Shown piece by piece: positions 48,203 through 64,000 of a stretch of 64,000 nt of DNA. The DNA is from Aquabacter sp. L1I39 (GTDB lineage: Bacteria > Pseudomonadota > Alphaproteobacteria > Rhizobiales > Xanthobacteraceae): NCBI RefSeq assembly GCF_017742835.1, contig NZ_CP072392.1, positions 1,203,388 to 1,267,387 of the forward strand. Reading direction: 5' to 3'. Numbering within the stretch: position 1 is the stretch's first letter; the number at the start of each line of letters is the position of its first letter. The translations under genes were made by a program, and so were the position numbers. The notes under the pieces were generated by a model. The model saw nothing but the letters and a program-made list of their open reading frames with translations. It had not been told where the DNA came from and did not search any database.

Positions 48203-49579
48203 TTATCCCTCCGCCGCCGCGAAGGCCGCCGCGAGGATGTCCAGGGATTGGGAGAATGCCTCGTCCGAGATGGTCAGGGGCGGGCAGAGGGTGAGCACCT
48301 TGCCGCCGCCCACCTTGAAGCTGAGGCCCCGCTCCAGGGCGGCATAAAGGATGCGGTCCGCCCGCACGCTCGCGGGCAGGCCGGCATGATCGCGCAGCTC
48401 CACGCCGAAGAACGCGCCGATATGGCGGACCTCCCGCACCTCCGGCCGCGCCGCGGCAAGGGCGTCGAGGCGCGCCCGCCCCGTCGCGCCCAGATGCCGG
48501 GCCCGGGCGCACAGATCCTCCTCCTCGATCACCTGAATGGCGGCGAGGCCGGCGGCGCTGCCCAGCGGGCTCTTCTCATGGGTGTAGTGGCCGAGCGCGA
48601 CCTGGCCGGCAATATCCAGGTCTCGCCGCACCAGGAGCGCCGCCTGGGGCACGATGCCTCCGCCAAGCCCTTTCCCCAGCGCCACCATGTCGGGCACACA
48701 GCCCATCTGCTCGAACACATAGAAGGTGCCGCAGCGGGCGAGCGCGGAGGGGATTTCGTCAAACACCAGCAAGGTGCCGTGGCGGGCGCAGCTTGCCTTC
48801 ACCTTGGCCCAGAAACCGGCCGGCGGCGGCTCAACCGTGGTCCAGCGCACCGGCTCGGCGATGAGGGCGGCCACGTCTCCCTGCACCTCCAGCACATAAT
48901 CGATGTAATCGGCCAGCCGATCGATGGCGCCGTCATCGTCGCCGAAGAAGCGACGGGCCATTCCGGGCGGGGGCACATGCTCGGCGCCGGGCAGGAGCGG
49001 GCCCACATCCTTGCGGAACAGCGCCTCGCCGCCGACCGAAATGGCATCGAGATTGGCGCCGTGGAAGGCGTCCCACATGGACAGGGTCTTGTGCCGGCCG
49101 GTGGCATAGCGCGCCAGCTTCAGCGCCATGCCGATGGCGGCGGAGCCGGACGGCGCGAGCAGCACCTTGCCCAGCGGTTCCGGGGCAAGGTCCGCCAGCT
49201 TCTGCGCAAAGCTCACCGCCTCCTGGCAGGTGAAGCGGCGGGGGCAGAAGGGCAAGCTGTCCAGCTGCGCCTTGATGGCCGCCACCACGGCGGGATGGCC
49301 GTGGCCCAATTGGTGCACGCTGTTGCCGTGGAAGTCGAAGATTCGGCGGCCGGACTGGGTCACCAGCACGGAGCCTTCCGCATGAACGACCACGTCGAGG
49401 CATGGCGAGGACAGAGACTGATGCAGGAAGACATCCGCATCCGCCTCCAGCAGGTCCCGCGTGGGCGCATCGAGCCCGGCGCTCCAGGCAGCGCGCAGGG
49501 GAGAAGTGTTGACGTCGCCTTCGCTGGCCCCGCCCTGCATGATCCGGTCTCCCGACACCATTGCCTCGCCCGCGCTCAC
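48203..49579 (-). CDS. pbfA: Class III PLP enzyme, (R)-1-hydroxy-2-aminoethylphosphonate ammonia-lyase type
   Basis: Class III aminotransferase fold, 458 residues. The PLP lysine is K303 in ALGKGLGGGIVP and the cofactor aspartate D274 in LVFDEIPSAL. Adjacent to phnX and the aminoethylphosphonate transporter, it fits PbfA, which is an ammonia-lyase rather than a transaminase and makes phosphonoacetaldehyde from hydroxylated aminoethylphosphonate. A true PhnW is class V, so this is not PhnW. Start is a GTG overlapping the phnX stop; ATGs lie a few codons in. The exact reaction is inferred from family and context. Confidence 0.8.
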   Translation of the reverse strand: MSAGEAMVSGDRIMQGGASEGDVNTSPLRAAWSAGLDAPTRDLLEADADVFLHQSLSSPCLDVVVHAEGSVLVTQSGRRIFDFHGNSVHQLGHGHPAVVAAIKAQLDSLPFCPRRFTCQEAVSFAQKLADLAPEPLGKVLLAPSGSAAIGMALKLARYATGRHKTLSMWDAFHGANLDAISVGGEALFRKDVGPLLPGAEHVPPPGMARRFFGDDDGAIDRLADYIDYVLEVQGDVAALIAEPVRWTTVEPPPAGFWAKVKASCARHGTLLVFDEIPSALARCGTFYVFEQMGCVPDMVALGKGLGGGIVPQAALLVRRDLDIAGQVALGHYTHEKSPLGSAAGLAAIQVIEEEDLCARARHLGATGRARLDALAAARPEVREVRHIGAFFGVELRDHAGLPASVRADRILYAALERGLSFKVGGGKVLTLCPPLTISDEAFSQSLDILAAAFAAAEG

Positions 49580-50385
49580 GGCCGCTCGCCCCGCGCCATG
49601 GCGCCTTCGATTTCGTCCAGCACCTCCCGCAGGTCCGCCACGCCATCGATGACGAAATGCGCGCCGGCGCGGGTCAATTTGCCATAGGCCTCGGCCCGGC
49701 GCGCCTCCAGCTCGTCATGGGAGAGAGCCTCGGTCTCGGCGGCATCCAGGCCGAACACATTGCCGGTGAGCGCGACGCCGACGCTCCAGCAGCCGGCATT
49801 CAGGCCCTCGGCCACGCCCACTTCGGTGTCATCCACCTTCACCACGGCGGCGGCGGGCCACACGCCGAGGTCGAGGAAGGTCTTGTACATCATGAGCGGG
49901 GTGGGCCGGCCCGCCGGCAGGTCGCCGGCGCACACCAGATTGTCCGGCGCATAGCCCTGCGCGGCCGCGCGCGGCAGAAGCGGCGCCATGATCTCGCGGG
50001 TATAGCCGGTGGTGGAGCCGATCTTCAGCCCCGCCGCGCGCAACTGGGCGGCGGTTTCGGCGGCGCCGGGGATGAGGGCGGAAAAATCGGTCACCACTTC
50101 CACATTGAGCGGCACGAAGACATCGTAGATGGCATCAATGTCCGCCTCGCCGGGGGCGCGGCCATGCACCTTTTCCCACTGGGCCGCGATGCGCGGCAGG
50201 CGGATGAGGGTGGAGATGTGGTCGCGCTTGGCCATGCCCATGGGGCCACGGGCCTCGTCGATGGAAATGTCCACGCCGAACTGCGCAAAGGCGCGCTGAA
50301 ACACGCCCATGGGCGCCTTCGAGCCGTGATCCACCATGGTGCCGGCCCAGTCGAACACGACGGCCTTGAGATGGGTAAAGGTCAT
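49576..50385 (-). CDS. phnX: Phosphonoacetaldehyde hydrolase (phosphonatase)
   Basis: HAD-family C-P bond hydrolase of 269 residues, converting phosphonoacetaldehyde to acetaldehyde and phosphate. The nucleophile is D12 in VVFDWAGTMVD and the Schiff-base lysine K53 in MGMAKRDHI; both positions equal those of the characterised Bacillus enzyme. GSTTGYT, KVDDTEVGV and GVALTGN follow. Overlaps with genes on both sides (four bases each) place it in a single operon with transporter and oxidase. Confidence 0.95.
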   Translation of the reverse strand: MTFTHLKAVVFDWAGTMVDHGSKAPMGVFQRAFAQFGVDISIDEARGPMGMAKRDHISTLIRLPRIAAQWEKVHGRAPGEADIDAIYDVFVPLNVEVVTDFSALIPGAAETAAQLRAAGLKIGSTTGYTREIMAPLLPRAAAQGYAPDNLVCAGDLPAGRPTPLMMYKTFLDLGVWPAAAVVKVDDTEVGVAEGLNAGCWSVGVALTGNVFGLDAAETEALSHDELEARRAEAYGKLTRAGAHFVIDGVADLREVLDEIEGAMARGERP

Positions 50386-51521
50386 GCGGCGTCTCCAAAC
50401 AGCTCGGCCAGGGTTTCCTCGGCGATGGCAAAGGCGGTGGAGGCCCCGGTGCCGCTGGTGACGATCACCAGTCGCACATCCGGTTGAGGGGCCACGCGCA
50501 CCATCAGCTTGTCGGGCAAGGAGGCATAGGTGCCCATCCAGCGCTCCGCCACCCGCGCGCCGGACAGGCGCAGCACCGCATGGAGCTTGTCCAGCATGAT
50601 GTTGTCCAAGCTGTCGGAGGAGAAGGGCGAGGGGCTGAAGCCATAATGATGGCTGTCGCCCACGATGAGCCCGCCATCGGCCCCCTGCACGGCGATGAGA
50701 TGGACCCCGTTGGCAAGCGCCTGCGGCTGCTCCTGCTCCAGCCGGGCCCGCAGCGCCGCCGCCTCGGGCAGTTCCGCATAGCCCAGATAGCGCACCAGGG
50801 AGAGATCGGACATGACGGCTGCCGGCAGGCGGAAACCCGGGTCGGCGGGCATGACCTTGAGCATCTGAAGCCAGCAGCGCTGGATGCCCAAGGCGGCGAT
50901 CTCCTCCGGGAAGAGGGTCACCAGGTCATCATTGGTGGAGACCACCACGCGGGCGCCGTGGATCTCGCCCTGGCTGGTGCGGACACGCCCCTCGTCCACC
51001 GCCGACACATGGCAGCGGCGGCGGAAGGTGACGCCCTTCGCCTCCTCCAGCCAGCGGGCAAGCTTCGGGATGGCGAAGCGGCTTTCCACCCGCCGCTCAT
51101 GGGGGCTGTAGAGGGCGCCTTCCAGCAGCGTGTCATTGAGGACCGCGCCATAATGGCGGCGCGTCTGCTCGGCAGTGAAGAGTTCGCAGTCAGCGCCCAT
51201 GTCGGTGGCGCGGAAGGCCTCCAGCACCGCCAGGGCCTCCGGCCGCTGCGCCACCACGATGAGGCCCTCATGCTCCACCACAATCCCGGCCTCCGGCGCC
51301 ACCTCCAGCCAGATTTCCTGGGAGCGCCGTGCGCGGCGCCAGCAGTCGCCGGCCTGCTGGCCGGTCACGGTGACGAAGCCGAAATTGCGGACGGAGGCGC
51401 CGATGGCCTCGCTCTCCCGGTCCACCACGCAGACCGAAATGCCCCGGCGGGTGGCGATGAGCGCATGGGCGAGGCCGACAATGCCGGCCCCCACCACCAC
51501 GAGGTCATATTTGGAGGTCAT
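50382..51521 (-). CDS. FAD-dependent oxidoreductase of phosphonatase clusters (TIGR03364 type)
   Basis: DAO-family flavoprotein of 379 residues from the ATG overlapping the permease stop. The FAD motif is LVVVGAGIVGLAHALIATRRGISVCVVDRE; ASVRNFGFVTVTGQQ is characteristic of the small DAO group found with phosphonate genes. Members of this group are thought to oxidise N-methylated or free aminoethylphosphonate to phosphonoacetaldehyde, feeding PhnX. It therefore supplies a second entry route beside PbfA. Substrate not proven. Confidence 0.83.
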   Translation of the reverse strand: MTSKYDLVVVGAGIVGLAHALIATRRGISVCVVDRESEAIGASVRNFGFVTVTGQQAGDCWRRARRSQEIWLEVAPEAGIVVEHEGLIVVAQRPEALAVLEAFRATDMGADCELFTAEQTRRHYGAVLNDTLLEGALYSPHERRVESRFAIPKLARWLEEAKGVTFRRRCHVSAVDEGRVRTSQGEIHGARVVVSTNDDLVTLFPEEIAALGIQRCWLQMLKVMPADPGFRLPAAVMSDLSLVRYLGYAELPEAAALRARLEQEQPQALANGVHLIAVQGADGGLIVGDSHHYGFSPSPFSSDSLDNIMLDKLHAVLRLSGARVAERWMGTYASLPDKLMVRVAPQPDVRLVIVTSGTGASTAFAIAEETLAELFGDAA

Positions 51522-53539
51522 CGGACGCGCCATTCCTGGGTGCGGGCAAGGCCCCGGGAGAGCACCGCATGGACGCCCCGGGCCGCAAGATTGGTGTAGA
51601 AGATGAGCATGCACATGGCCGCCGCCGACTGGATCTGTCCGGCATCATCCATGTTCAGCGCCGCCACCGCCGCGAGCGTGGTGGAGGGCGCATACAGGAA
51701 CACCACGGCCGACACGGTGGTCATGGCGTTCACGAAATAATAGGCCGCCACATCGAGGCCGGTGGGCATGCAGACCGGCATGGTGATGCGGGTAAACATG
51801 CGCGTCACCGGTTGCTTCAGGGAGGCGGCCACCGCCTCGAACTCCCGGTCCATGGCCTTCAGCGCGGTCAGGGCCGTGAGGTGCGAGACCGTGTAGAAAT
51901 GGGTCACCGTGCAGATCACCAGGATCGCCATGGTGCCATAGAGCGGGTTCAGCGGATTGGACTTGTCGTTGAAGAAGAAGATGTAGGCAAGGCCAAGCAC
52001 GAGGCCGGGAATGGCCATGGGCAGCATGGCAAGGAAGTGGAGGCCGGTCCGCGCGGCCAGGAAGCCGCGCCCCTTCTCCACCAGATAGGCGCCCACAAAC
52101 ACCACCACCGTGCCGATGACCGCGGTGTAGAAGGCCAGGCGCAGGGAGTTGAAATAGGAGCCCCAGCCGCCGCCATCCACGCCCTCAAAGGCGAAATGGG
52201 TCAGGCTCATGGACAGGTCGTAGGGCCAGAAGCGCACCAGGGCGGCATATTGCGACACGCCCAGCACCAGCAGCAGAAGACCGGCCACCACGCAGCAGAA
52301 GGCGAAGGCAGCCCAGTCGAGGGCGCCATTGCGCTGTGGGGCATAAGGCACGGCGCGGGCGGTGAGCAGGGCCACCTGGCGGGCGGTGACCAGCCGGTCG
52401 ACGAAAAAGGCCACCACCGCCGGAATGAGCAGGATCACCGACACCACCGCGCCCATGGCGAAATTCTGCTGGCCCACCACCTGCTTGTAGATGTCCACCG
52501 CGAGCACGTTGAAGTCGCCACCCACCACTTTGGGCACGCCGAACTCGGTGATGGTGAGGGTGAACACAACGAAGGCCGCCGAGATGAGGCCATAGCGGGC
52601 GCCGGGCAAGGTCACGGTGAAGAAGGCCCGCCGGGGCGGCGTGCGCAGCACCCGCGCCGCCTCATAGAGGCGGGCATCGGAGACCGCGAGCGCGGTCGCG
52701 ATGATGAGGAAAGCGTGGGGGAAGGTGTAGAACACGCAGCCCGCGATGATGCCGCCGGCGCCATAGATCTTGGCGCCGAACAGCAATTCCTTCAGCAGGC
52801 CCTGATTGCCGAACAGATACACCAGCGACAGGCCCGCCAGCAGCGAAGGCACCAGGATGGGCACCATGGCGATGGTGCGGAACAGGCCCTTGGCGGGCAT
52901 GCAGGTGCGGGTGAGGGCATAGGCGAAGCCGAAGGCCAGCAGCACCGTGATGAAGGTGGTGGCCAGCGACACCGCGAAGCTGTTGGCGATGGACTGGGTC
53001 AGCGCGGGATTGCTGAAATAGGCGAGGTAATTGTCGAGGCTGCGCACGGTGCCGGCGCGCAGCACCAGGCGGCGCAGGTCCTGGGCCGAGACCTCCGCCC
53101 ATTCGCCGGGCGCCACCGGCTTGCCGGACAGATCGAGCGTGCCGTCGGCGGTGCCGGTGAGGCGCATGCGCAGCCCCTCCAGCGGCACGCCGTCGAAGGT
53201 GCGCTTGGGAAACAGCTGCGCCGCCGTGAGCGAGGTGGAGCGGCGGGCCTGATCCACCCCCGCGCCGAGGCCGAGTTTCGGCGCCAGCGCCTCCAGCGTG
53301 CCCGCCGGCACGAAGCCCGCGCCCGTGTCCACCTGCAGTTCCACGGCGCCGTAGGGGAAGGCGCGGACCTCGGTGGACTTCCACAACATGAACAGGATGG
53401 GCAGCGCCAGGCTGACCACCAAATAAAGGCCGATCATCAGGGTGAAGACCAGCATCAGCCGGTCATCACGCCCCACCTTGGGGCGGATGGTCGGCGCGTG
53501 CGGCAGGGCCGTCACGCGGGCGGCAGCGGCATCAGACAT
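51518..53539 (-). CDS. 2-Aminoethylphosphonate ABC transporter permease (double-domain)
   Basis: Fused permease of 673 residues with two BPD-type membrane modules: the first with EAA-like loop EAARVLRTPPRRAFFTVTLPGARYGL, the second with FEAVAASLKQPVTRMFTRITMPVCMP. About 12 hydrophobic helices in total, and a soluble insert at about 65-165 between the first helix and the rest. This layout matches permeases annotated for aminoethylphosphonate uptake (PhnU/AepW type). It overlaps the ATPase gene end and the oxidase start. Confidence 0.87.
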   Translation of the reverse strand: MSDAAAARVTALPHAPTIRPKVGRDDRLMLVFTLMIGLYLVVSLALPILFMLWKSTEVRAFPYGAVELQVDTGAGFVPAGTLEALAPKLGLGAGVDQARRSTSLTAAQLFPKRTFDGVPLEGLRMRLTGTADGTLDLSGKPVAPGEWAEVSAQDLRRLVLRAGTVRSLDNYLAYFSNPALTQSIANSFAVSLATTFITVLLAFGFAYALTRTCMPAKGLFRTIAMVPILVPSLLAGLSLVYLFGNQGLLKELLFGAKIYGAGGIIAGCVFYTFPHAFLIIATALAVSDARLYEAARVLRTPPRRAFFTVTLPGARYGLISAAFVVFTLTITEFGVPKVVGGDFNVLAVDIYKQVVGQQNFAMGAVVSVILLIPAVVAFFVDRLVTARQVALLTARAVPYAPQRNGALDWAAFAFCCVVAGLLLLVLGVSQYAALVRFWPYDLSMSLTHFAFEGVDGGGWGSYFNSLRLAFYTAVIGTVVVFVGAYLVEKGRGFLAARTGLHFLAMLPMAIPGLVLGLAYIFFFNDKSNPLNPLYGTMAILVICTVTHFYTVSHLTALTALKAMDREFEAVAASLKQPVTRMFTRITMPVCMPTGLDVAAYYFVNAMTTVSAVVFLYAPSTTLAAVAALNMDDAGQIQSAAAMCMLIFYTNLAARGVHAVLSRGLARTQEWRVR

Positions 53540-54692
53540 GATGTGCTCCCGCGCCCTTGGCCTTGTCCTCGTAGATGCGCAGCCGTTCGGACGGCAGGCT
53601 CACCTCGACGGGCTTGCCGGGAACGATCTGGAGCGCACGCACCAGTTCCTGGGACGACTGCGCCACCAGCAAGGCGGGACGGAAGTCCCGATGGGAGAGG
53701 CTCAGGCGCACGTGGGAGCCGAGGAATTCCACATGCTCCACCACCATCTCCACCCGGTTGGCGGACTGCCAGTCGGAATGGGGGTCGGCGCCGATGATGC
53801 GCACATCCTCCGGGCGGATGGCGGCGGTGACGCGCACGCCGTCCGCCGGCAAGCCCCGGCCGGCCCGCAGCCGGACCTCGCCCACATGCACCTCTCCGCC
53901 ATTGGCGATCTCGCCCGCAAAGAAGTTCATGGCGCCGATGAAGTCGGCGACGAAGCGGGTGGCGGGGCTATTATAGATTTCAGCAGGCGTGCCCACCTGC
54001 TCCACCACGCCCACATTCATCACCACCACCCGGTCCGCCATGGAGAGCGCCTCGTCCTGGTCGTGGGTGACCATGACGGTGGTGACGCCGAGGCGGGCCT
54101 GGAGTTGCTTCAGCTCGTTGCGCAGATGGAGGCGCACCTTGGCATCGAGCGCGCTCAAGGGCTCGTCCAGCAAGATCAGGCCGGGGCTCGGCGCCAGGGC
54201 GCGGGCCAGGGCCACGCGCTGCTGCTGGCCGCCGGAAATCTGCGAGGGATATTTGTGGCCGTGCTCTTTCAGACCGACCAGATCGAGCAATTCCTCCACC
54301 CGCGCCGAAATGGCCGCGCGCGGCATGCGCCGGTTTTCCAGCCCGAAGGCGATGTTCTGGCGCAGCGTGAGGTTGGGGAACAGGGCATAGGACTGGAACA
54401 CGATGCCGAAGTCGCGCTCCTCCGGGGGCAAGGCGGAAATGTCCCGGCCGGCCTGATGGATGGTGCCCGAGGATTGGATGTCGAGGCCGGCAATGGCGCG
54501 CAGCAAGGTGGTCTTGCCGCAGCCGGACGGGCCGAGAAAGCAGACGAACTCGCCTTCCCCGACCTCCAGCGAGACGCCCTTCAGCGCCACGAAGTCCTTG
54601 AAACGCTTGGTGACATTCTCCACCACCAGATAGGGCGAGCGCGCGGGCGGCTCAAGGGCAGCCAGCGCCAGCTCAACGGCGTGCTCAGTCAT
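53532..54692 (-). CDS. 2-Aminoethylphosphonate ABC transporter ATPase
   Basis: ATPase of 386 residues from the ATG at 54692. Walker A is GPSGCGKTT, signature [15 protein letters not shown], Walker [17 protein letters not shown] and H-switch VTHDQDEA; a TOBE domain occupies the last 120 residues (RPEDVRIIG). The spermidine/iron/phosphonate-type family fits PhnT/AepV. The C-terminus overlaps the permease start by eight bases. The in-frame extension upstream of 54692 is not protein-like. Confidence 0.88.
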
Positions 54693-54760
54693 GTGGAAGC
54701 CCCTCGATCTGCAACGCCGGCCCCCTGCGGCCCGGGCTGCCCTGATCCCCCGTCGAAGGC

Positions 54761-54774
54761 TGCCGCATGCGGCA
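54761..54774. other. Palindrome between binding protein and ATPase genes
   Basis: TGCCGCATGCGGCA is a perfect 14-bp palindrome in the 155-bp gap after the binding-protein gene. It may set the usual higher expression of the binding protein by attenuating read-through. Confidence 0.3.
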
Positions 54775-54847
54775 TGCCTCCGGCAGTTCCCTTGCGATGG
54801 CCCGGTTTTTATGGCCCGCTGCCGACGCGCCGGACAGAAGGGCTGGC

Positions 54848-55861
54848 TCAGCCCTTGGGCTCGGACTTGCTGCCGAAGCGCTTCTGCCACTCTTCGAGAA
54901 TGGCGGCGCGATGGGAGGCGGCCCATTCAAAGTCGTTCTTGATGAGCTTGGCCTTGATGTCCGCCGGCACGTTTTTGATGGCCTCTTCCATCGCCGGATT
55001 ACCGAGGATGGCGTAGTTCTTGGCGTAGATCTTCATGGCATCGTCGGAGACGGCCCAGTCGATCAGCTTCTTGGCATCGGCCTCATTGGGTGTGCCCTTG
55101 ATGATGGCCGAGGCCTCCACGTCCCAGCCGACGCCTTCGGTCGGCACCACGGCCACCACCGGCGCGCCCTGGTTGATGACGCGGGCGGCGCGGAACTCGA
55201 AGGAAATGCCGATGGGATATTCGCCGGATGCCGCCAGCGTGCAGGGCTTGGAGCCGGAATGGGTGTAGGTGGCGATGTTGTGGTGCAGGGCGTCCATATA
55301 GGCCCAGCCCTTCTGGTCGCCCCACATCTGCAGCCAGCTGGACACGTCCAGGAAGCCGGTGCCGGAGGAGGCCGGATTGGGCATCACGATGAGGCCCTTA
55401 TATTCCGGCTTGATGAGGTCGGCCCAGGAGGTGGGAATGGGCAGGTCCCGCTTCTTCATCTCCACCGTATTGACGCACAGCGCCGCGGCCCAGGCATTGG
55501 TGCCCACCCAGGTGGGCGGGGTGTCCTTGGAGACGAAGCGCGGGTCGATCTTGTCGAGGCCCTTGGGCGCATAGCCCTCGAGCATGCCTTCCGCGTCCAG
55601 CAATTGCAGCGAGGTGGCGGCGGTGCCGAGCACCACGTCCGCCTGGGGATTATCCTTTTCCGCGAGCAGCTTGGCGGTGATGATGCCGGTGGAATCGCGG
55701 ACCCAGCGAATGCTGATGCCGGGATTCTTTTCCTCGAAGCTCTTCTTATAGACCGGCAGGAGATCGGCCTCCAGCGCAGTATAAACCGTCAATTCACCGG
55801 CATGGGCCACGCCGGAGAGCAACACCAAGCTCGCCGCCAAGAGGCTGGTGATCCGCGTCAT
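54848..55861 (-). CDS. 2-Aminoethylphosphonate ABC substrate-binding protein
   Basis: Periplasmic binding protein of 337 residues. AGGAGA lies six bases before the ATG at 55861. Signal peptide ends near GVAHAGELTVYTALE. The fold is iron/phosphonate-type (class II), with VVLGTAATSLQLLDAEGMLEGYAP, IVMPNPASSGTGFLDVSSWLQM and VGWDVEASAIIKGTPNEADAKKLIDWAVSD. First gene of the phosphonate operon. The phosphonate ligand is inferred from the catabolic genes. Confidence 0.87.
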   Translation of the reverse strand: MTRITSLLAASLVLLSGVAHAGELTVYTALEADLLPVYKKSFEEKNPGISIRWVRDSTGIITAKLLAEKDNPQADVVLGTAATSLQLLDAEGMLEGYAPKGLDKIDPRFVSKDTPPTWVGTNAWAAALCVNTVEMKKRDLPIPTSWADLIKPEYKGLIVMPNPASSGTGFLDVSSWLQMWGDQKGWAYMDALHHNIATYTHSGSKPCTLAASGEYPIGISFEFRAARVINQGAPVVAVVPTEGVGWDVEASAIIKGTPNEADAKKLIDWAVSDDAMKIYAKNYAILGNPAMEEAIKNVPADIKAKLIKNDFEWAASHRAAILEEWQKRFGSKSEPKG

Positions 55862-56033
55862 GGTTTTCTCCTGCACCGAGGCCATCCCTTCGGGCGGTTG
55901 TGCGCCGCCTAATGGCCAAGCCTAAGGTAGTGCTGGCGCCGTGACAGCCTTGTGACCGACAGGTGAACTTTCGGTCTCTCCTTACCGCTCTGGCCGATGC
56001 GGGAGGAGCCTGTCCATCGCAGCTCGCGGGTGT

Positions 56034-56574: not shown

Positions 56575-57783
56575 TCAATCCAGCGGTGATCTCACGAAAT
56601 GCTCGAGGATTGAGCTGTAGGGCGTGAAACCCACGCGGAGCCAGAACACCCGGCCACCCGGATTGTTCTCGATCGCCTCCAGAATCACGCGGTCTCCAGG
56701 ACGGAAGCGCGCCGCCACCAAGGCATCAAATGCCGCCTGTCCCAGCCCGTCTCGGCGATAGTGCCGCACGATGTAGAACTGGCGCAGGAACACCCGCTCG
56801 CCGGACGGATCGGAGGGCTCTGGCTCTCGGCGGTGGGTGGCGTAGCCAACCACCTCGTCGTCCAGCATGAACAGGTCGACGCTCCACCCCTCCTCGTCTA
56901 CGAACCGGCCGAAGCGCGCTTCCATCTGCTCGATGGTCATGGGGTTTCGGTGGCCTTCGTCATCAGCCAGTTCGCGGTTCATCCGCGCGAGAAGCGGGAA
57001 GTCCGACCGCACATGGGGCCGCACCGTCACCTTGCCAGCGAATTTCGAGGCACCGGCTCCCCCTTTCGGGTCGAGGTCCGCCGATTTCGGCAGGCTGTCC
57101 CCATGGGGGCCCAGATATTGCAGGACAATGTCCCGCTCATCGAGGATATGCGCCTTCAGTACCGCCAGAAGCCGCTCCGTGCTGCGGGCGCGAACCGCCT
57201 CTAGAATGGCCGCATGCCCGCGCGCGGCGGCCTGGAGCTGCTCGGGATCGGGATGCATCATCAGGTGGACGAGGCGCAGCTCGGTGGCGAGCCGCGTGAA
57301 GGTGTCGGTGATGCGCTCATTGTGGCCCGCGCGGCAAAGCGCAGCGTGAAAGGCCACGTCCGCCTCGATCATCCGGCCGGGCGCATTGGCCAAGGCGGCG
57401 GTCTCGGTTTCCCGTAAGGCCGCTTCAATGCCGGCGAAGTCAGACGCTTCGATCACCCGGACCGCCTCTTCCGCGGCTGTGCATTCGAGCACGGCCCGCA
57501 GCGTGTAGATGTCCGCCACCTCGCGCTGGTTCAGCTTGCGCACGAACGAGCCGCGAAACGGATGCCCGGTCAGGAGGCCGGTCTCCTGGAGCCGACGTGA
57601 CGCCTCCCGCACGGGTCCGCGGCTGACGCCCAGGCGCTCGGCAATCTCGGCCTCGCGCAGCTTGTCGCCGGGACGCAGTTCGCCGTTGAGGATGATCTGG
57701 GAGATTTCCTCGGTCACGGTCTCAACGAGCGTGCGGCGCTTCACGGGGGAAGCGCCCGGCTCCTCGGCGGTGCTGTCCATCAT
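56575..57783 (-). CDS. GntR/FCD transcriptional regulator fused to a GNAT acetyltransferase
   Basis: Two-part protein of 402 residues. Residues about 18-85 are a GntR winged helix (ISQIILNGELRPGDKLREAEIAERLGVSRGPVREASRRLQETGLL), about 95-225 an FCD ligand domain with its His/Asp metal-site pattern (DVAFHAALCRAG, AARGHAAILEAVRA), and 255-400 a GNAT domain (MNRELADDEGHRNPMT, FLRQFYIVRHYRRDGLGQAAFDAL with the acetyl-CoA loop, NNPGGRVFWLRVGF). The GNAT part is closely related to the separate protein at 60765. It is divergent from that operon. Ordinary FadR-family regulators are about 230 residues, so the extra domain is real and unusual. Confidence 0.87.
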   Translation of the reverse strand: MMDSTAEEPGASPVKRRTLVETVTEEISQIILNGELRPGDKLREAEIAERLGVSRGPVREASRRLQETGLLTGHPFRGSFVRKLNQREVADIYTLRAVLECTAAEEAVRVIEASDFAGIEAALRETETAALANAPGRMIEADVAFHAALCRAGHNERITDTFTRLATELRLVHLMMHPDPEQLQAAARGHAAILEAVRARSTERLLAVLKAHILDERDIVLQYLGPHGDSLPKSADLDPKGGAGASKFAGKVTVRPHVRSDFPLLARMNRELADDEGHRNPMTIEQMEARFGRFVDEEGWSVDLFMLDDEVVGYATHRREPEPSDPSGERVFLRQFYIVRHYRRDGLGQAAFDALVAARFRPGDRVILEAIENNPGGRVFWLRVGFTPYSSILEHFVRSPLD

Positions 57784-57838
57784 GTCTCCTTCGAACTGCG
57801 GGGATCATAAAAGCCCGGAGGGATGGTTCAAGATAATT

Positions 57839-57870
57839 TATTGTTGACAATATTTTGTCTGGCATATTTT
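57839..57870 (+). promoter_or_regulatory. Promoter with overlapping TATTGT-TG-ACAATA palindrome
   Basis: A sigma70-like TTGACA (57844-57849) is followed 15 bases later by TATTTT (57865-57870). The -35 box is embedded in the inverted repeat TATTGT-TG-ACAATA (57839-57852). Repression by the divergent GntR-GNAT protein is the simplest reading. It lies 32 bp before the FAD-oxidase start. Confidence 0.5.
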
Positions 57871-57901
57871 CTGTGACCACCTTCGCAGTGGAGCAGAACC
57901 C

Positions 57902-59224
57902 GTGCCCCCGATGCCTACCGACATTTTCGCCAAGGATTTCAAGGCGGAGCCTTATTGGTGGGACGACGCTGCGCCCCAGACATGCACGCCGGACCTGCCC
58001 GCCCAAGCCGATCTCGTCATTGTCGGCAGCGGCTTTTGCGGCCTCGGTGCGGCGCGGCGGGCGCTGGAACTGGGGGCCAAGCCCGTGGTCCTGGATGCCG
58101 GGGCCATCGCCGGTGGCGCCAGTTCGCGCAGTGGCGCCATGCTGTCGGCAGGGCAGAAATTCCTGCTGAACGGAACCTCAGACCAATTGGGCGCCGACCT
58201 GATCGAAGCCCTGACAACGGCCCATGCCGAGGCCTTCGATCATGTCCGGGGTCTCGCGGCGGCCTATGGCGCGCCCGTCGAACTGTTCCAGCCGTCCGGG
58301 CGCCTCTTCCTGGCGGCGGTTCCGAAGGATCTCGACCGCTTCGTCGGCCACGCCCGCATCCTGTCCAGCCTCGCCGGCCTCACGGCCAGCGTGCTCGGGC
58401 CGCAGGACTTGCAGCGTGAAATCCGCACGCGCCACTATCATGGCGGGCTCCTGGTGGAGGACTTTGGCGGACTGCACCCCTCGCGCTTTGCGTGCGCCCT
58501 GCTCAAGGACGTGCAGCAGCGCGGCGCCATTGTGCGCTCCCACACCGCCGTCAGCACCGTACGCCGGGTGGGCGAGGGTTTCCTCGTTCACACCCCCGCA
58601 GGCGACATCCGCACGCCTCATGTGCTCTTCGCCACCAACGCCTATACCGACAGCGCGCAGACCTGGGTGCGCCAGCGCGTGGCACGGGTCGGATCCTACA
58701 TGATCGCCACCGAGGCCATCGGACGCGAGGCGGTGAGCGCCCTGATGCCCACCCGGCGCATGTATTCGGACAGCAAGCGCAACCTTTGGTATTTCCGCCC
58801 CTCCCCGGATGGCACACGCATCCTGCTCGGCGCCCGGCCGGGCCTCATTCCTGGCGTGCCCGAGCGTGCCGCGCCGCTTCTGCATCGCTCTCTCGCCCAG
58901 ATCTTCCCCAGCCTTGCCACGGTCAAGATCTCTCATGCCTGGAGTGGGTCCGTGGCCATGACGCGCAGCCACCTCCAGCATATGGGCCAGCACGAGGGAT
59001 GCTGGTTCGCGGTCGGCTGCAATGGCAGCGGCGTCGGCATCATGCCCTGGCTGGGGCAGCTTGCGGTGGAGCGCATGCTGGGCGCGCGCGCAACGCCGAC
59101 GGTGTTCGAGCGCCTGCCCTTCGGGCGGCTCCCCAATGTGGCGGGGCGGCCCTGGTATGTGCCGGCCGCGGCGGGCGCCTTCGGCTTGATGGATTGGCTC
59201 GATCGCAGGCAGGCAAGCCTGTGA
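57902..59224 (+). CDS. FAD-dependent amine/amino-acid oxidase (DAO family, PuuB-like)
   Basis: Flavoprotein of 440 residues. An N-terminal stretch with SYWW-like PYWWDD precedes the FAD motif LVIVGSGFCGLGAARRALELGAKPVVLDAG, then GGASSRSGAM; the C-terminus has AWSGSVAMTRSHLQHMG and GCNGSGVGIMPWLG. Overall form matches gamma-glutamylputrescine oxidase-type enzymes that turn an amine into an aldehyde. The downstream aldehyde dehydrogenase fits. Start is GTG with GGAG upstream; ATG at 57911 is an alternative. First gene of the operon. Confidence 0.85.
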   Translation: MPPMPTDIFAKDFKAEPYWWDDAAPQTCTPDLPAQADLVIVGSGFCGLGAARRALELGAKPVVLDAGAIAGGASSRSGAMLSAGQKFLLNGTSDQLGADLIEALTTAHAEAFDHVRGLAAAYGAPVELFQPSGRLFLAAVPKDLDRFVGHARILSSLAGLTASVLGPQDLQREIRTRHYHGGLLVEDFGGLHPSRFACALLKDVQQRGAIVRSHTAVSTVRRVGEGFLVHTPAGDIRTPHVLFATNAYTDSAQTWVRQRVARVGSYMIATEAIGREAVSALMPTRRMYSDSKRNLWYFRPSPDGTRILLGARPGLIPGVPERAAPLLHRSLAQIFPSLATVKISHAWSGSVAMTRSHLQHMGQHEGCWFAVGCNGSGVGIMPWLGQLAVERMLGARATPTVFERLPFGRLPNVAGRPWYVPAAAGAFGLMDWLDRRQASL

Positions 59225-59247
59225 TTGAGGGATTGGACGGAGCGACC

Positions 59248-60765
59248 ATGACGACCCACCCCTCCCCCCGGCACCACCCCTTCTGGACCGATGTGGCGCG
59301 CCTGGTGCAGATCGAGACCCGTGCCTTCATCGACGGTGATTATGTGCCGGCCGCGGATGGGCGCACCTTCGCCTGCATCAATCCGGCCACCGGCGCCGTG
59401 CTCGGTGCCGTCGCCGCATGCAGCATCCAGGATGTGGACCGCGCCGCCGCCGCCGCCCGGCGGAGCTTCGAGAGCGGGCGCTGGTCGCGATGCGACCCGG
59501 CGGTGCGCCGGCGAACTCTGATCCGGCTCGCGGATCTCATCGAAGAACATCGCGACACCCTCGCGATCCTGGAAACGTTGGACACCGGAAAGCTGATCCG
59601 TGATTCCGCAACGCTGGACATTCCGGGTTCGGCCGATGTGTTCCGCTTCTTCGGCGAAGCGTGCGACAAACTCCTCGACGAGGCCGTTCCGGTGGGCACC
59701 GGCGCCCTGGCGACCATCACGCGCGAGCCGGTCGGGGTTGTCGGCGCAGTGGTGCCCTGGAACTTCCCGCTCAAGATGGCCGCTTGGAAATGTGCACCCG
59801 CACTTGCCGCCGGCAACAGCGTCATTCTCAAGCCGGCGGAGCAGTCCCCGCTCACGGCCCTTTACCTCGCGGGCCTTGCGGCGGAAGCGGGCATTCCCCG
59901 CGGCGTCTTCAACGTGCTCCCGGGCTTCGGCCCCGATGCGGGCGCCCCCATCGGCCTGCATCCGGATATTGACTGCGTCGGCTTCACGGGCTCGACCGAA
60001 GTGGGCAAGCTGTTCCTCGGCTATGCCGGCAGGTCGAACATGAAGCGGGTCTGGCTGGAATGCGGCGGCAAGAGCGCCTTCATTGTCTTTCCCGATGCGC
60101 GCGACCTGAAGGCCGCCGCGCAGGCCGCTGCCGCCGGCATCTTCTTCAACCAGGGTGAGATCTGCTCGGCCACTTCGCGCCTGTTTGTCCATGAGGACAT
60201 TCGCGCGGACTTCACGGCGCTGCTGCTGGAGGCCGCCCGCGCCTACATGCCGGGCGACCCGCTCGACCTTGCCTCCGGCATGGGCGCCATGGTCAGCGCT
60301 GAGCAAACGCAGCGCGTCTTGTCCTATATCGAGACCGGCAAGAGCGAGGCGAACCTGCTGTGCGGCGGCGGCCGGGTGCTGGCGGAAAGCGGGGGCAGCT
60401 TCATCGCGCCCACCATCTTCGCCGATGTGGATCCGCGCGCGGTGATCGCCACCGAGGAAATCTTCGGCCCGGTCCTGTCCATCATCCCCTTCCGCAATGA
60501 GGCCGAGGTGGTCAGCCTTGCGAACGCCTCCATTTATGGCCTCGGGGCGTCCGTCTGGACCTCGTGTCTCGACCGCGCGGTGCGCCTGTCCCGCGCCCTC
60601 CATGTGGGCAGCGTGAGCGTGAACGCGGTTGACCATGTGGACCTGCGCACGCCCTTCGGCGGGGTGAAGCAGTCCGGCAATGGGCGCGATCTCTCGCTGC
60701 ACGCCTTCGAGAAATATCTCGACCTCAAGACCACCTGGATTTCCATCGGGGAGGCGGCTGCGTGA
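59248..60765 (+). CDS. Aldehyde dehydrogenase (PuuC/betaine-aldehyde type)
   Basis: NAD(P)-dependent aldehyde dehydrogenase of 505 residues, starting at the ATG preceded by GGAG; the longer upstream frame lies inside the oxidase gene. PWNFPLKMAAWKCAPALAAGNSVILKP is the cofactor site, GFTGSTEVGK the glycine loop, and LECGGKSAFIVF carries the general-base glutamate. The catalytic cysteine is in FFNQGEICSATSRL, and EEIFGPVLSIIPF and FGGVKQSGNGRD follow. Together with the preceding oxidase it would convert an amine through an aldehyde to a carboxylate. The start lies 23 bases after the oxidase stop. Confidence 0.92.
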   Translation: MTTHPSPRHHPFWTDVARLVQIETRAFIDGDYVPAADGRTFACINPATGAVLGAVAACSIQDVDRAAAAARRSFESGRWSRCDPAVRRRTLIRLADLIEEHRDTLAILETLDTGKLIRDSATLDIPGSADVFRFFGEACDKLLDEAVPVGTGALATITREPVGVVGAVVPWNFPLKMAAWKCAPALAAGNSVILKPAEQSPLTALYLAGLAAEAGIPRGVFNVLPGFGPDAGAPIGLHPDIDCVGFTGSTEVGKLFLGYAGRSNMKRVWLECGGKSAFIVFPDARDLKAAAQAAAAGIFFNQGEICSATSRLFVHEDIRADFTALLLEAARAYMPGDPLDLASGMGAMVSAEQTQRVLSYIETGKSEANLLCGGGRVLAESGGSFIAPTIFADVDPRAVIATEEIFGPVLSIIPFRNEAEVVSLANASIYGLGASVWTSCLDRAVRLSRALHVGSVSVNAVDHVDLRTPFGGVKQSGNGRDLSLHAFEKYLDLKTTWISIGEAAA

Positions 60766-61235
60766 TGACCGCACCAAGCATGCCAGTTCTGCGCACCGCG
60801 ACCGCCGCGGACCTGCCCGCCATCGCCCGGATGAACCGCGCGCTCATCGAGGACGAGGGCCATCGCAACCCCATGACCCTCGACCAGTTGGAGGCGCGCG
60901 CGCAGGGCTTCCTCGACAGCCCCGACTGGCATGTGGACCTGATCGAGCAGGACGGCCGCCTGGCCGGATACGCCACTTGGCGCTGGGAGAGCGACATCGC
61001 CGAGCCCTCCGGCCAGCGCATCTATCTGCGCCAGTTCTTCATCGCCCGCGAGGCGCGGGGCGCGGGCCTGGGTCGGCGGGCCTTCACCCTCCTGATGCAC
61101 GAGCGCTTCCCGCCGGGCGCGCGCATTCTGCTGGAAGTGCTGCACAGCAATCCCACCGGCCAGGCATTCTGGGCGCGCATGGGCTTTGAGCCCTATGCCG
61201 TCCATCTGGAACGCCGTGCCGCCCCGACCGTCTGA
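60765..61235 (+). CDS. GNAT acetyltransferase, stand-alone paralogue of the regulator's C-terminal domain
   Basis: Acetyltransferase of 156 residues whose ATG shares a base with the aldehyde dehydrogenase stop. Motifs: IARMNRALIEDEGHRNPMTLDQLEAR, IYLRQFFIAREARGAGLGRRAF (acetyl-CoA loop RxxGxG), and LHSNPTGQAFWARMGFEPY. The same blocks in the same order appear in the GntR fusion (MNRELADDEGHRNPMTIEQMEARF, FLRQFYIVRHYRRDGLGQAAF, NNPGGRVFWLRVGF). It probably acetylates a pathway intermediate or its amine; the substrate is unknown. Confidence 0.86.
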   Translation: MTAPSMPVLRTATAADLPAIARMNRALIEDEGHRNPMTLDQLEARAQGFLDSPDWHVDLIEQDGRLAGYATWRWESDIAEPSGQRIYLRQFFIAREARGAGLGRRAFTLLMHERFPPGARILLEVLHSNPTGQAFWARMGFEPYAVHLERRAAPTV

Positions 61236-61263: not shown

Positions 61264-62754
61264 ATGAGCGCACCCGTCACCGACGCCACCCGCATCGGAC
61301 GCGCAAGCGGCGCCAAGGCGCCGGAATTCCAGGAATTGTACGATTTCGACGCGGCCGCCCTGACGCTGACCAGCGCCGTCTTCCCCTATGACAGCAAGAT
61401 CCACCGCGCCCATGTGGTCATGCTGGCCGAGCAGGCGATCCTGTCCGCCGACGAGGCCAGCCGCATCCTGCGCGGCCTGGCCCTGGCGGACGCACGGGCC
61501 GAGGACGATCCCGCCCTGCGGACCTATCTGCCCTATGAGGCCGCGTTGAAGCGCGAGATCGGCTCGGTGGCGGGCAAGATGCATATCGGCCGCAGCCGCA
61601 ACGACTTGGCCAATGCGGGCAAGCGGATGTTCCTGCGGGACCAGCTGCTGCGGACCATCGCAGCGGTCATCGGGCTGCGCGAAGCCGTGGTCGAGAAGGC
61701 GGCGGACCACCTCCACACGGTCATGGTGGTCTATACCCAGCGCAAGGAAGCTCAGCCCATCACGCTCGGCCACTATCTGATGGCCATCAGCGAAAACCTG
61801 GGCAAGGCCCTCGACCGGTTCCGCGAGCTCTATCCGCGCGTCAACCAGTGCCCGCTCGGCGCGGCCGCCACCGCCGGAACGGGCTGGCCGCTCGATCGCG
61901 AGCGTACGGCGGCGCTCCTGGGCTTTGACGGGCTGGTGGTGAACAGCATCGAGGGCGTTGCCGGTTGGGACCATGTGGCGGAGTTCGCCTTCGACAACGC
62001 GCTCTTCCTCAGCGCCCTGAGCCGCCTCGCCTCGGAGATCCAGCTCTGGAGCAGCGACGAATACCAGATGGCGGAGCTGGATGCCTCCTTCGCCGGCACC
62101 AGCAGCATCATGCCGCAGAAGAAGAATCCGGATTCCCTGGAGCGCAGCCGCAAGGCGGCGTTCGCGGCCATGGGGCCGCTGGTCGGCATCCTCACCTCAC
62201 TGAACGGCATCGAATATCAATACAGCGCCGCCCGCGTGGAACTGGAGCCGCGCTCCATCGACGCCATGATCGCCGCCACCCATGCCATGACCGGCGTGGT
62301 GCGCACCCTGCATCCCAACAAGGCGCAGATGCTGCGCTATGCGGCGGAAAACTACGCCACCATGACGGACCTGACCGACATGCTGGTGCGCCGCGTGGGC
62401 ATCGACTACCGGGAGGCCCACGAGATCGTGGCCCGGGTGGTGATGAGCGCCATCGAGCGAGGCATCAAGGCGAACCATATCGGGCTCGACTTGGTCCAGG
62501 AGGCCGCCATCGCCCAGACCGGCCAGCCCATCGCGGTGGGGGCGCAGGACATCGCCGACGCCCTCGACCCGGTGCAGAACGTGGCGCGCCGCAAGGGCAA
62601 GGGCATGCCGGCGCCGGACTCCGTAAAGGCCGCCATTGACGAGGCGCGCCTCGCCCTTGACGCCGACCGCTCCTGGCTGGACCGGACCACCCAGCGGCTC
62701 GCCACGGCGGACGCCCAGCTCGCCGCCGCGGTCGCGGCCAATTGCGGCGGCTGA
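61264..62754 (+). CDS. Argininosuccinate lyase-like C-N lyase (aspartase/fumarase superfamily)
   Basis: Lyase of 496 residues from the ATG after GAGGAAAA. The superfamily signature is TSSIMPQKKNPD (280-290), with the catalytic serine in the SS pair; the ASL-type substrate motif is GRSRND (109-114), and LGAAATAGTGWPLDRE replaces the usual LPLGSGALAG-type stretch. It is longer than ordinary ArgH (about 460), and an arg gene context is absent. In this operon an N-substituted aspartate is a likelier substrate than argininosuccinate, giving fumarate and an amine. Genuine ArgH cannot be excluded. Confidence 0.82.
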   Translation: MSAPVTDATRIGRASGAKAPEFQELYDFDAAALTLTSAVFPYDSKIHRAHVVMLAEQAILSADEASRILRGLALADARAEDDPALRTYLPYEAALKREIGSVAGKMHIGRSRNDLANAGKRMFLRDQLLRTIAAVIGLREAVVEKAADHLHTVMVVYTQRKEAQPITLGHYLMAISENLGKALDRFRELYPRVNQCPLGAAATAGTGWPLDRERTAALLGFDGLVVNSIEGVAGWDHVAEFAFDNALFLSALSRLASEIQLWSSDEYQMAELDASFAGTSSIMPQKKNPDSLERSRKAAFAAMGPLVGILTSLNGIEYQYSAARVELEPRSIDAMIAATHAMTGVVRTLHPNKAQMLRYAAENYATMTDLTDMLVRRVGIDYREAHEIVARVVMSAIERGIKANHIGLDLVQEAAIAQTGQPIAVGAQDIADALDPVQNVARRKGKGMPAPDSVKAAIDEARLALDADRSWLDRTTQRLATADAQLAAAVAANCGG

Positions 62755-62812: not shown

Positions 62813-63670
62813 ATGACGAAGACCCGTTTGTTCTGCCTGACCATATGGATGACCACCGCCGTCGCCGGCACGGCCTGGGCCCAGCAGATCCCGGTGCCGG
62901 CGAGTCTTAAGGAAAAGGGAGAGCTGCGGGTGGGCGTCAAATGCGACAGCCCTCCCGCAGGTTTCCTCGACGAGAAGGGCAACCCGGCCGGCATCGACGT
63001 GGACATGGCGCGCCACATGGCCGAGCGCGCCTTCGGCGACCCCGGCAAGGCGGTCTTCACCTGCGTCACCGCTGCGACCCGCGTCCAGATGCTTGCCTCC
63101 GGCAAGGTGGACGTGCTGTTCGCCACCATGGGGGTCACCGAGGAGCGCAAGCAGACGGTGGACTTCGCCACCTCCACCAATTGGGGTGCCTCCGGCATCC
63201 TGGTGCGGGCCGGCGAGGACGTCCGCAGCCTTGATGACCTCAAGGGCAAGACCTTGCTGACCAACAAGGGCGCCTGGCAGGTGGGCTTCCTTGAGAAGAA
63301 CTATCCCCAGATCAAGCTCGTCAAGTATGACAACATCGCCGACGCCATCCAGTCCCTGCGCCAGGGCCGGGGCGATGGGGTGACGCAGGACAGCCACGTT
63401 CTGGTGGTGGCCGCCAGCAAGGATCCTCGCCTGAAGGTGTCTGACGTGGTGTTCCAGATCGGCTGGTCCGCACCCGCCGTCCGGCGCGGCGACACCGCCA
63501 TGCGCGAATTCATCAGCGCCATGGTGAGCCAGGCCAAGACCGACGGCACCTACCGTGCCGCCGTCGAGCGCTATGCCGGGGAAGCCGACCTGGAGGAGCG
63601 CCTCCACAGCTACACGACCTTGCCGCCGGATGGGTCCTCCGACCAGAACAGCGTGCTTCCGCCCCCTTGA
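62813..63670 (+). CDS. Amino-acid ABC transporter substrate-binding protein
   Basis: Type II periplasmic binding protein (SBP_bac_3) of 285 residues from the ATG after AGAGGGG. The signal peptide ends near AWAQQIPVPASL (about residue 22). Then KEKGELRVGVKCDSPPAGFLDEKGNPAGIDVDMARHMAERAF, the ATMGVTEERKQTVDFA hinge and LLTNKGAWQVGFLEKNYP. Glutamate/aspartate- or polar-amino-acid-type import is likely. It follows the lyase by 58 bases and precedes the permease. Confidence 0.9.
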   Translation: MTKTRLFCLTIWMTTAVAGTAWAQQIPVPASLKEKGELRVGVKCDSPPAGFLDEKGNPAGIDVDMARHMAERAFGDPGKAVFTCVTAATRVQMLASGKVDVLFATMGVTEERKQTVDFATSTNWGASGILVRAGEDVRSLDDLKGKTLLTNKGAWQVGFLEKNYPQIKLVKYDNIADAIQSLRQGRGDGVTQDSHVLVVAASKDPRLKVSDVVFQIGWSAPAVRRGDTAMREFISAMVSQAKTDGTYRAAVERYAGEADLEERLHSYTTLPPDGSSDQNSVLPPP

Positions 63671-63767: not shown

Positions 63768-64000
63768 ATGATGAGTTCGCCATTCGACTGGAGCTATCTC
63801 TGGTCCATCTCACCCCTCTTCCTGAAGGGCCTGGAGATGACCGTCTTCCTTGCGGTCGTCTGCAATGGGCTCGCCGTGGTCCTGGCCTATGTCCTGGCTG
63901 CGGCGCTGCATTTCCGCATCAAGGTGGTGCAGGACATCATCCGGTTCTATGTCTCCTTCATCCGCAACACGCCGTTGCTGGTTCAGATCTTCTTCTTTTA
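63768..64000 (+). CDS. Amino-acid ABC transporter permease (3' truncated by window)
   Basis: Starts with two adjacent ATGs (63768, 63771) and reads WSYLWSISPLFLKGLEMTVFLAVVCNGLAVVLAYVLA, the first helix of a HisM/GlnP-type permease. FIRNTPLLVQIFFF is the conserved RxTPLLVQxFF motif. The rest is outside the window. It pairs with the binding protein just upstream; a second permease and ATPase presumably follow. Confidence 0.9.
   Translation, partial: MMSSPFDWSYLWSISPLFLKGLEMTVFLAVVCNGLAVVLAYVLAAALHFRIKVVQDIIRFYVSFIRNTPLLVQIFFF

Follow-up and report, generated by a model that had tools for sequence, protein, structure and literature searches.

The DNA analysed here, called the window below, is a stretch of 64,000 nucleotides from Aquabacter sp. 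L1I39 (contig NZ_CP072392.1). It carries a gene for a GntR/FCD-type transcriptional regulator that is fused at its C-terminus to a GNAT acetyltransferase domain, and this regulator faces a divergent operon that encodes a stand-alone GNAT enzyme of the same family. The operon also contains a lyase similar to ethylenediaminedisuccinate (EDDS) lyase. The following genes and features, with the helix-turn-helix (HTH) and the other regions of the regulator given by residue, make up the locus.

56575..57783, minus strand: GntR-FCD-GNAT fused regulator, 402 amino acids (Pfam; alignment of the window protein with 28 members); HTH 20-81, FCD 91-213, conserved cap 214-229, variable linker 230-250, GNAT 251-395
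56578..57036, minus strand: GNAT domain of the regulator, spanning residues 250-402, with the acetyl-CoA loop RRDGLG at 343-348
57840..57851, no strand assigned: predicted operator ATTGTTGACAAT between the divergent genes
57902..59224, plus strand: DAO-type flavin adenine dinucleotide (FAD) oxidase; best NCBIfam model L-pipecolate oxidase AmaA with 124.9 bits, far under the cut-off of 600
59248..60765, plus strand: aldehyde dehydrogenase; best NCBIfam model PuuC with 615.7 bits, under the cut-off of 850
60762..61235, plus strand: stand-alone GNAT acetyltransferase, paralogous to the GNAT domain of the regulator; 157 amino acids from a GTG start or 156 from the adjacent ATG
61264..62754, plus strand: EDDS-lyase-like C-N lyase of the argininosuccinate lyase superfamily; R112, N113, Q159, S281, N288, D290, and Y320 kept
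62813..63670, plus strand: amino-acid-type (SBP_bac_3) ABC substrate-binding protein
63768..64000, plus strand: 5' part of an ABC permease gene with a start codon picked by eye; the ABC ATPase lies past the window edge

The Pfam search bore out the coordinates, lengths, and GntR/FCD/GNAT make-up given in a preliminary description of the locus. GntR was assigned to residues 20-81 (64.6 bits, cut-off 27), FCD to residues 91-213 (80.8 bits, cut-off 24.3), and GNAT to residues 296-386, all exceeding the curated cut-offs. The Acetyltransf_1 model scored 32.3 bits with the regulator and 43.9 bits with the stand-alone enzyme, at a cut-off of 20.7. In the FCD domain, D142, H146, and H190 were found in all 29 aligned fusions and H212 in 27 of them; these four positions, which we take to be a metal-binding site, align with those of PDB entries 7xp0 and 3fms. 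The motif LQYLxPHG (residues 221-229; 57097-57123, minus strand), which closes the FCD domain ahead of the linker, is invariant in 29/29 fusions, and the linker preceding the GNAT domain is variable (22% mean identity).

The two GNAT sequences of the window align without gaps, with 71 of 142 residues identical (50%, E 3e-49, BLASTP), and the distinctive blocks that had been described as common to both are visible in this alignment. The acetyl-CoA loop of GNAT enzymes has the motif Q/RxxGxG/A, which is present as RRDGLG in the regulator and as RGAGLG in the stand-alone enzyme. With the latter as query, only two matches were obtained in the 5.39-Mb genome (E 0.001), both at this locus.

A search of 5.8 billion proteins, in which 8,000 candidates were scored, retrieved 28 full-length fusion relatives with 52 to 97% identity and one partial relative (P0029). 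The next matches beyond the fusions were GntR-FCD proteins without a listed GNAT domain. In a profile search, likewise with 8,000 candidates scored, no additional fusion was found and the score dropped from 385 bits for the last fusion to 142 bits for a GntR-FCD protein without a listed GNAT domain. The fusion family is thus sharply bounded. For three members (P0011, P0027, and P0028) the GNAT domain is missing from precomputed Pfam lists, yet the whole domain aligns. The source names include Rhizobium sp. (L1K21 and CG5), Paraburkholderia sediminicola, Caballeronia pedi, and Chelativorans multitrophicus (P0015). An assembly or frameshift artefact was ruled out, since the 28 full-length homologues have the same architecture and the six fusion loci read contain no internal stops. 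As to whether the fusion is absent from close relatives, a point raised in the preliminary description, the result was divided: the one other genome of the same genus that was searched has neither GNAT, whereas the fusion itself occurs in several genera and two classes.

Generic models, and the name of the PDB entry itself, label the lyase of the operon as argininosuccinate lyase. Its closest solved relatives are the sequences of the PDB 6G3D series, from the EDDS lyase of Chelativorans (866 bits; second sequence of the series, 858 bits), and the next solved enzyme, an argininosuccinate lyase, follows at 200 bits. The alignment with the 6G3D-series enzyme extends over 488 residues without a gap. 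In the reverse of its natural reaction, EDDS lyase cleaves EDDS to fumarate and N-(2-aminoethyl)aspartate (AEAA). According to one paper (PMC12363623), the natural reaction is the addition of ethylenediamine to two fumarates, and entry 6G3H of the same series shows the Chelativorans sp. BNC1 enzyme in complex with (S,S)-EDDS, near which R112, N113, Q159, N288, D290, and Y320 are located. All six of these published substrate-site residues are kept in the lyase of the window, as is S281. EDDS is reported to be a substrate of strain BNC1 and of C. multitrophicus DSM 9103 (PMC7312458). Because the lyase is closest to the 6G3D series and retains the six site residues, the operon probably serves to consume the chelator EDDS or a similar aminopolycarboxylate.

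Six loci with the fusion were read: the window, two of Rhizobium (L001 and L002), two of Paraburkholderia (L003 and L004), and L104. The underlying contig scan gives a lower bound, the fusion of L104 having come from a later search. The fused regulator, a stand-alone GNAT, an EDDS-type lyase, and an FAD oxidase occur together in all six, across two proteobacterial classes and with varying gene order. The substrate-binding protein was found in five (not in L002). The aldehyde dehydrogenase is of the window type in the window, L001, and L002 (75 to 77% for the latter two) and of another type in L003, L004, and L104 (30 to 32%). This constant pairing, together with the shared palindromes described below, supports the proposal that one enzyme of the operon opposite has a genuine relative built into the regulator.

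Genome surveys, in which scoring was limited to the best 9 to 26 candidates of a genome where more existed, so that misses are possible, and in which the surveyed groups overlap one another, pointed to a narrow distribution. Both GNAT copies were present in 1 of 397 genomes of the window's order and 1 of 385 of its class (in each case its own genome), 2 of 144 of the Paraburkholderia group, 1 of 394 of the family of genome G778, and 3 of 398 of the family of G781. The lyase was found in exactly the same 2 of the 144 Paraburkholderia-group genomes, and in 1 of 121 genomes of the family of G779, namely in G779 itself, a fusion carrier. Searches of plasmid records were negative for both the lyase (E 1e-100) and the GNAT (E 1e-20). 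The fusion locus is rare and accessory. No fusion accompanies the stand-alone relatives detected in G251, G773, G209/G309/G1194, and G1367; in the protein search for stand-alone GNATs 200 candidates were scored, and the copies of L001, L003, L004, and L104 are not listed there. In the stretches read around four such relatives (L097, L098, L099, and L105), tblastn showed neither an EDDS lyase nor a DAO oxidase nor a full regulator.

Two of these relatives have neighbours worth recording. In G251 (L097, 7602-8087), the stand-alone GNAT that groups nearest the fused domains has genes for an FAD-binding protein and an MFS transporter next to it, and the 15.5 kb read there showed neither an EDDS lyase nor a fused regulator. 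In G209 (L099, 9218-13007), a GNAT of the same family, split between frames, lies beside a betaine-aldehyde-dehydrogenase-like gene and an EctB-like diaminobutyrate transaminase, neighbours which hint at a diamino-acid substrate range for the GNAT family.

The relationship of the two GNAT types was examined in a tree of 58 sequences, 29 fused (the window and P0001-P0028) and 29 stand-alone. The fused domains form one clade (support 100/98), nested in a 99/99 group with the stand-alone copies of betaproteobacterial EDDS-type operons and those of L097 and L099, and the window-type stand-alone GNATs form a separate clade (99/95). Branches are long for L004 and L099, and the rooting is weak. The two GNATs of the window, which the preliminary description had considered might belong to unrelated clades, therefore fall in neighbouring sub-clades of one family. 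A single fusion event is well supported by this tree. The 99/99 branch suggests a Burkholderiales enzyme as donor of the fused domain; a rival tree holding together the 16 stand-alone GNATs of alphaproteobacterial and Burkholderiales EDDS-type operons, a group named after inspection of the tree, is likewise allowed, being 19.3 log units worse and not rejected (p = 0.0565, approximately unbiased test).

The intergenic region between regulator and operon contains the only mismatch-free TTGTBVACAA of the window, at the position of the predicted operator, beside a sigma-70-like match on the strand of the regulator. An 8-mer palindrome, TGTTGACA/TGTCAACA, was present in 9/9 control regions compared; these lie upstream of the regulator and, for the three betaproteobacterial loci, additionally between the GNAT-lyase genes and the oxidase. 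Exact copies numbered 17 in 1,783 bases of control region, compared with 90 in 1,328,506 bases of other loci (0.068 per kb), a background that includes short loci overlapping the same control regions and is too high if anything; 1,000 single-base shuffles gave at most one copy. As the motif was discovered in these same regions, the enrichment is not an independent test. Flanks that were not used in motif discovery extend the palindrome, with A in 17 and the matching T in 13 of 19 palindromes, two near-matches included. The window's own genome has two occurrences of TTGTTGACAA, one being at this locus, and further copies of the 8-mer are found elsewhere in L002, L003, and L104. The shared palindromes support a link between the regulator and the control regions of the enzyme genes.

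Based on these data, we propose that the regulator is a GntR/FCD repressor of an EDDS-type operon whose GNAT domain was co-opted to sense a ligand of the enzyme, a model to which we give about even chances as a whole. Its domains, paralogy, fused clade, neighbouring genes, palindromes, lyase site residues, and FCD residues are seen in the sequence, and we infer repression, EDDS as the substrate, the sequence in which the enzymes act, and what the GNAT domain binds. The repressor would occupy AANTGTCAACANTT sites in the stretch that separates its gene from the operon. EDDS would enter via the ABC transporter and be split by the lyase into fumarate and AEAA, whose free aminoethyl amine is probably acetylated by the stand-alone GNAT; judging from the gene set, the FAD oxidase, by oxidative cleavage, and the aldehyde dehydrogenase would then dismantle the remainder. 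The C-terminal domain of the regulator, having presumably arisen once from the same small GNAT family as the stand-alone enzyme, would sense AEAA or N-acetyl-AEAA by binding it, acetyl-CoA being an optional co-ligand, and the FCD domain with its retained metal-binding residues would provide a second effector site. Among the solved GNATs ranked nearest by a profile comparison are a thialysine acetyltransferase, in first place, and diamine acetyltransferases 1 and 2, which fits an aminoethyl amino acid as substrate. Just past the operon, in the stretch L112 (2985-11406), a TctC-type receptor, a thiolase-like protein, two CoA-transferase subunits, two acyl-CoA dehydrogenases, and a hydroxyacyl-CoA dehydrogenase/enoyl-CoA hydratase protein are encoded.

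The fused domain is clearly constrained. It is more alike between genomes than the stand-alone enzyme in 15/15 pairs of the six loci (the pairs are not independent), and thus is no decaying passenger. The acetyl-CoA loop is eroded in 4/29 fusions (P0015 with P0023, and P0027 with P0028), and in a tree computed with the loop left out, the supported branches require that it was lost twice independently; it is kept in 30/30 stand-alone rows, one of them a duplicate. These losses speak for ligand sensing without catalysis in the two lineages concerned. Several observations weigh against a sensor role for the GNAT domain. The loop is intact in the other 25 fusions, that of the window included, so the regulator may well be catalytic. 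The eroded proteins P0015 and P0023 also change LRQF to LKQF, and P0028 changes DEG to DQG, LRQF to LRGY, and PY to PF, so that its decay is not confined to the acetyl-CoA side. A general relaxation of the loop in fusions was unsupported once the four eroded rows were omitted (30/132 windows as high, compared with 4/132 with them), and an exceptional constraint on the DEGHRN block was likewise unsupported (33/126 windows as low; 23/126 without the eroded rows). Finally, phosphinothricin acetyltransferase and unnamed solved GNATs rank as near as the diamine enzymes, which makes the substrate guess a weak one, and the FCD domain alone can sense a ligand.

The main rival to the sensor model is a trigger enzyme, in which the GNAT domain is catalytically active as an acetyltransferase and either produces or removes the inducer, the repressor thereby setting its own signal chemically. 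The widely kept loop and the strong conservation of the domain are in its favour. Since a stand-alone enzyme is present in all six fusion loci, such an activity would be redundant, and the loop was lost in two lineages, one of which includes the protein named from Chelativorans, for which EDDS use is reported (PMC7312458); we regard this rival as possible but unlikely. FCD regulators normally sense ligands through the FCD domain, and with the metal residues kept, that domain could be the only sensor, the GNAT domain giving dimerisation or stability and having no ligand role. This seems slightly less likely still, as the GNAT domain derives from the operon's own enzyme family and has a higher identity than the FCD domain in 322 of 406 pairs of fusions; moreover, the block MNR..DDEGHRN, with a putative location in the pocket, is invariant at most positions across the 29 rows. 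Acetylation of a protein, for example of the regulator itself, by which the supply of acetyl-CoA would be read, could draw on the loop kept in most fusions and on the acetylated lysine reported for the regulator NrtR (PMC6800001). The closest kin of the domain is an enzyme of a catabolic operon, for which a small-molecule substrate is likelier, and we consider protein acetylation very improbable.

On the minus strand at 48203-55885, beside the EDDS-type operon, lies a 2-aminoethylphosphonate operon encoding a PbfA-type ammonia-lyase, a phosphonoacetaldehyde hydrolase, a TIGR03364 oxidase, and a PhnS2-type binding protein. It is just downstream of the regulator gene on the same strand, and the best NCBIfam model of the regulator is phnR_burk (143.2 bits), which could indicate a PhnR-like regulator of that operon. 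This score is far under the equivalog cut-off of PhnR (TIGR03338, 271.5 bits), tblastn (E 1e-5) detected none of four phosphonate-operon proteins in the parts of the other five fusion loci that were read, and the window has no second mismatch-free operator. This assignment, the least probable of the four, was rejected.

The principle of a regulator built from a relative of a pathway enzyme is already known from NrtR and the MocR/GabR family. Closest in principle is NrtR, a Nudix-HTH regulator of nicotinamide adenine dinucleotide metabolism, which likewise rests on an enzyme domain but has a different HTH and no FCD domain and is unrelated to the fused regulator. M. smegmatis NrtR is reported to have lost hydrolysis of ADP-ribose and yet to be released from DNA by ADP-ribose (PMC6800001). 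MocR/GabR proteins share a GntR-type HTH followed by an enzyme-fold domain as sensor, and differ in having an aminotransferase fold with pyridoxal phosphate instead of FCD and GNAT. A member of this family, EnuR, governs a catabolic cluster for ectoine breakdown and binds pathway intermediates including alpha-acetyldiaminobutyrate (PMC8739950). Neither an aminotransferase nor a Nudix domain was among the Pfam matches of the regulator at E 0.001. GntR/FadR-type FCD repressors such as PDB 7xp0 and 3fms share the HTH and the FCD domain with its aligned D-H-H-H residues, and no GNAT domain was listed among the matches outside the family. For the operon, the EDDS lyase of Chelativorans sp. BNC1 is alike in sequence and site residues, and the thialysine and diamine acetyltransferases (PDB 12jc, 2bei, and 2b4d) are remotely related to the GNAT family (E between about 1e-9 and 1e-6). 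Text searches of the open-access literature for fusions of GntR or other HTH domains with GNAT showed none among the records listed, in agreement with the earlier statement that no such system had been described. The publications on EDDS lyase and EDDS genes retrieved there, in their accessible parts, yielded no description of a fused regulator or of the regulation of EDDS lyase.

A further variant of the sensor model, which we put forward as a long shot, is a three-input gate, in which the GNAT domain reads the aminoethyl intermediate and acetyl-CoA and the FCD metal site reads the chelator, by binding or removing the metal. If this were true, expression would require all three signals, chelator, intermediate, and acetyl-CoA, at once, and the lineages without the acetyl-CoA loop would have dropped one input.

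The locus presents a clear case of an enzyme family from which the regulator of its own operon apparently gained a domain in a single event, and both copies lie side by side in each fusion locus read. If the GNAT domain of the regulator is a sensor, a residue-level comparison of the two copies could reveal the changes that turn a catalyst into a sensor. For the catabolism of EDDS-type chelators, a candidate regulator, operator, transporter, and post-lyase steps are gained, none of which was met in the accessible parts of the open-access literature searched. The regulator may thereby offer a basis for an aminopolycarboxylate biosensor.

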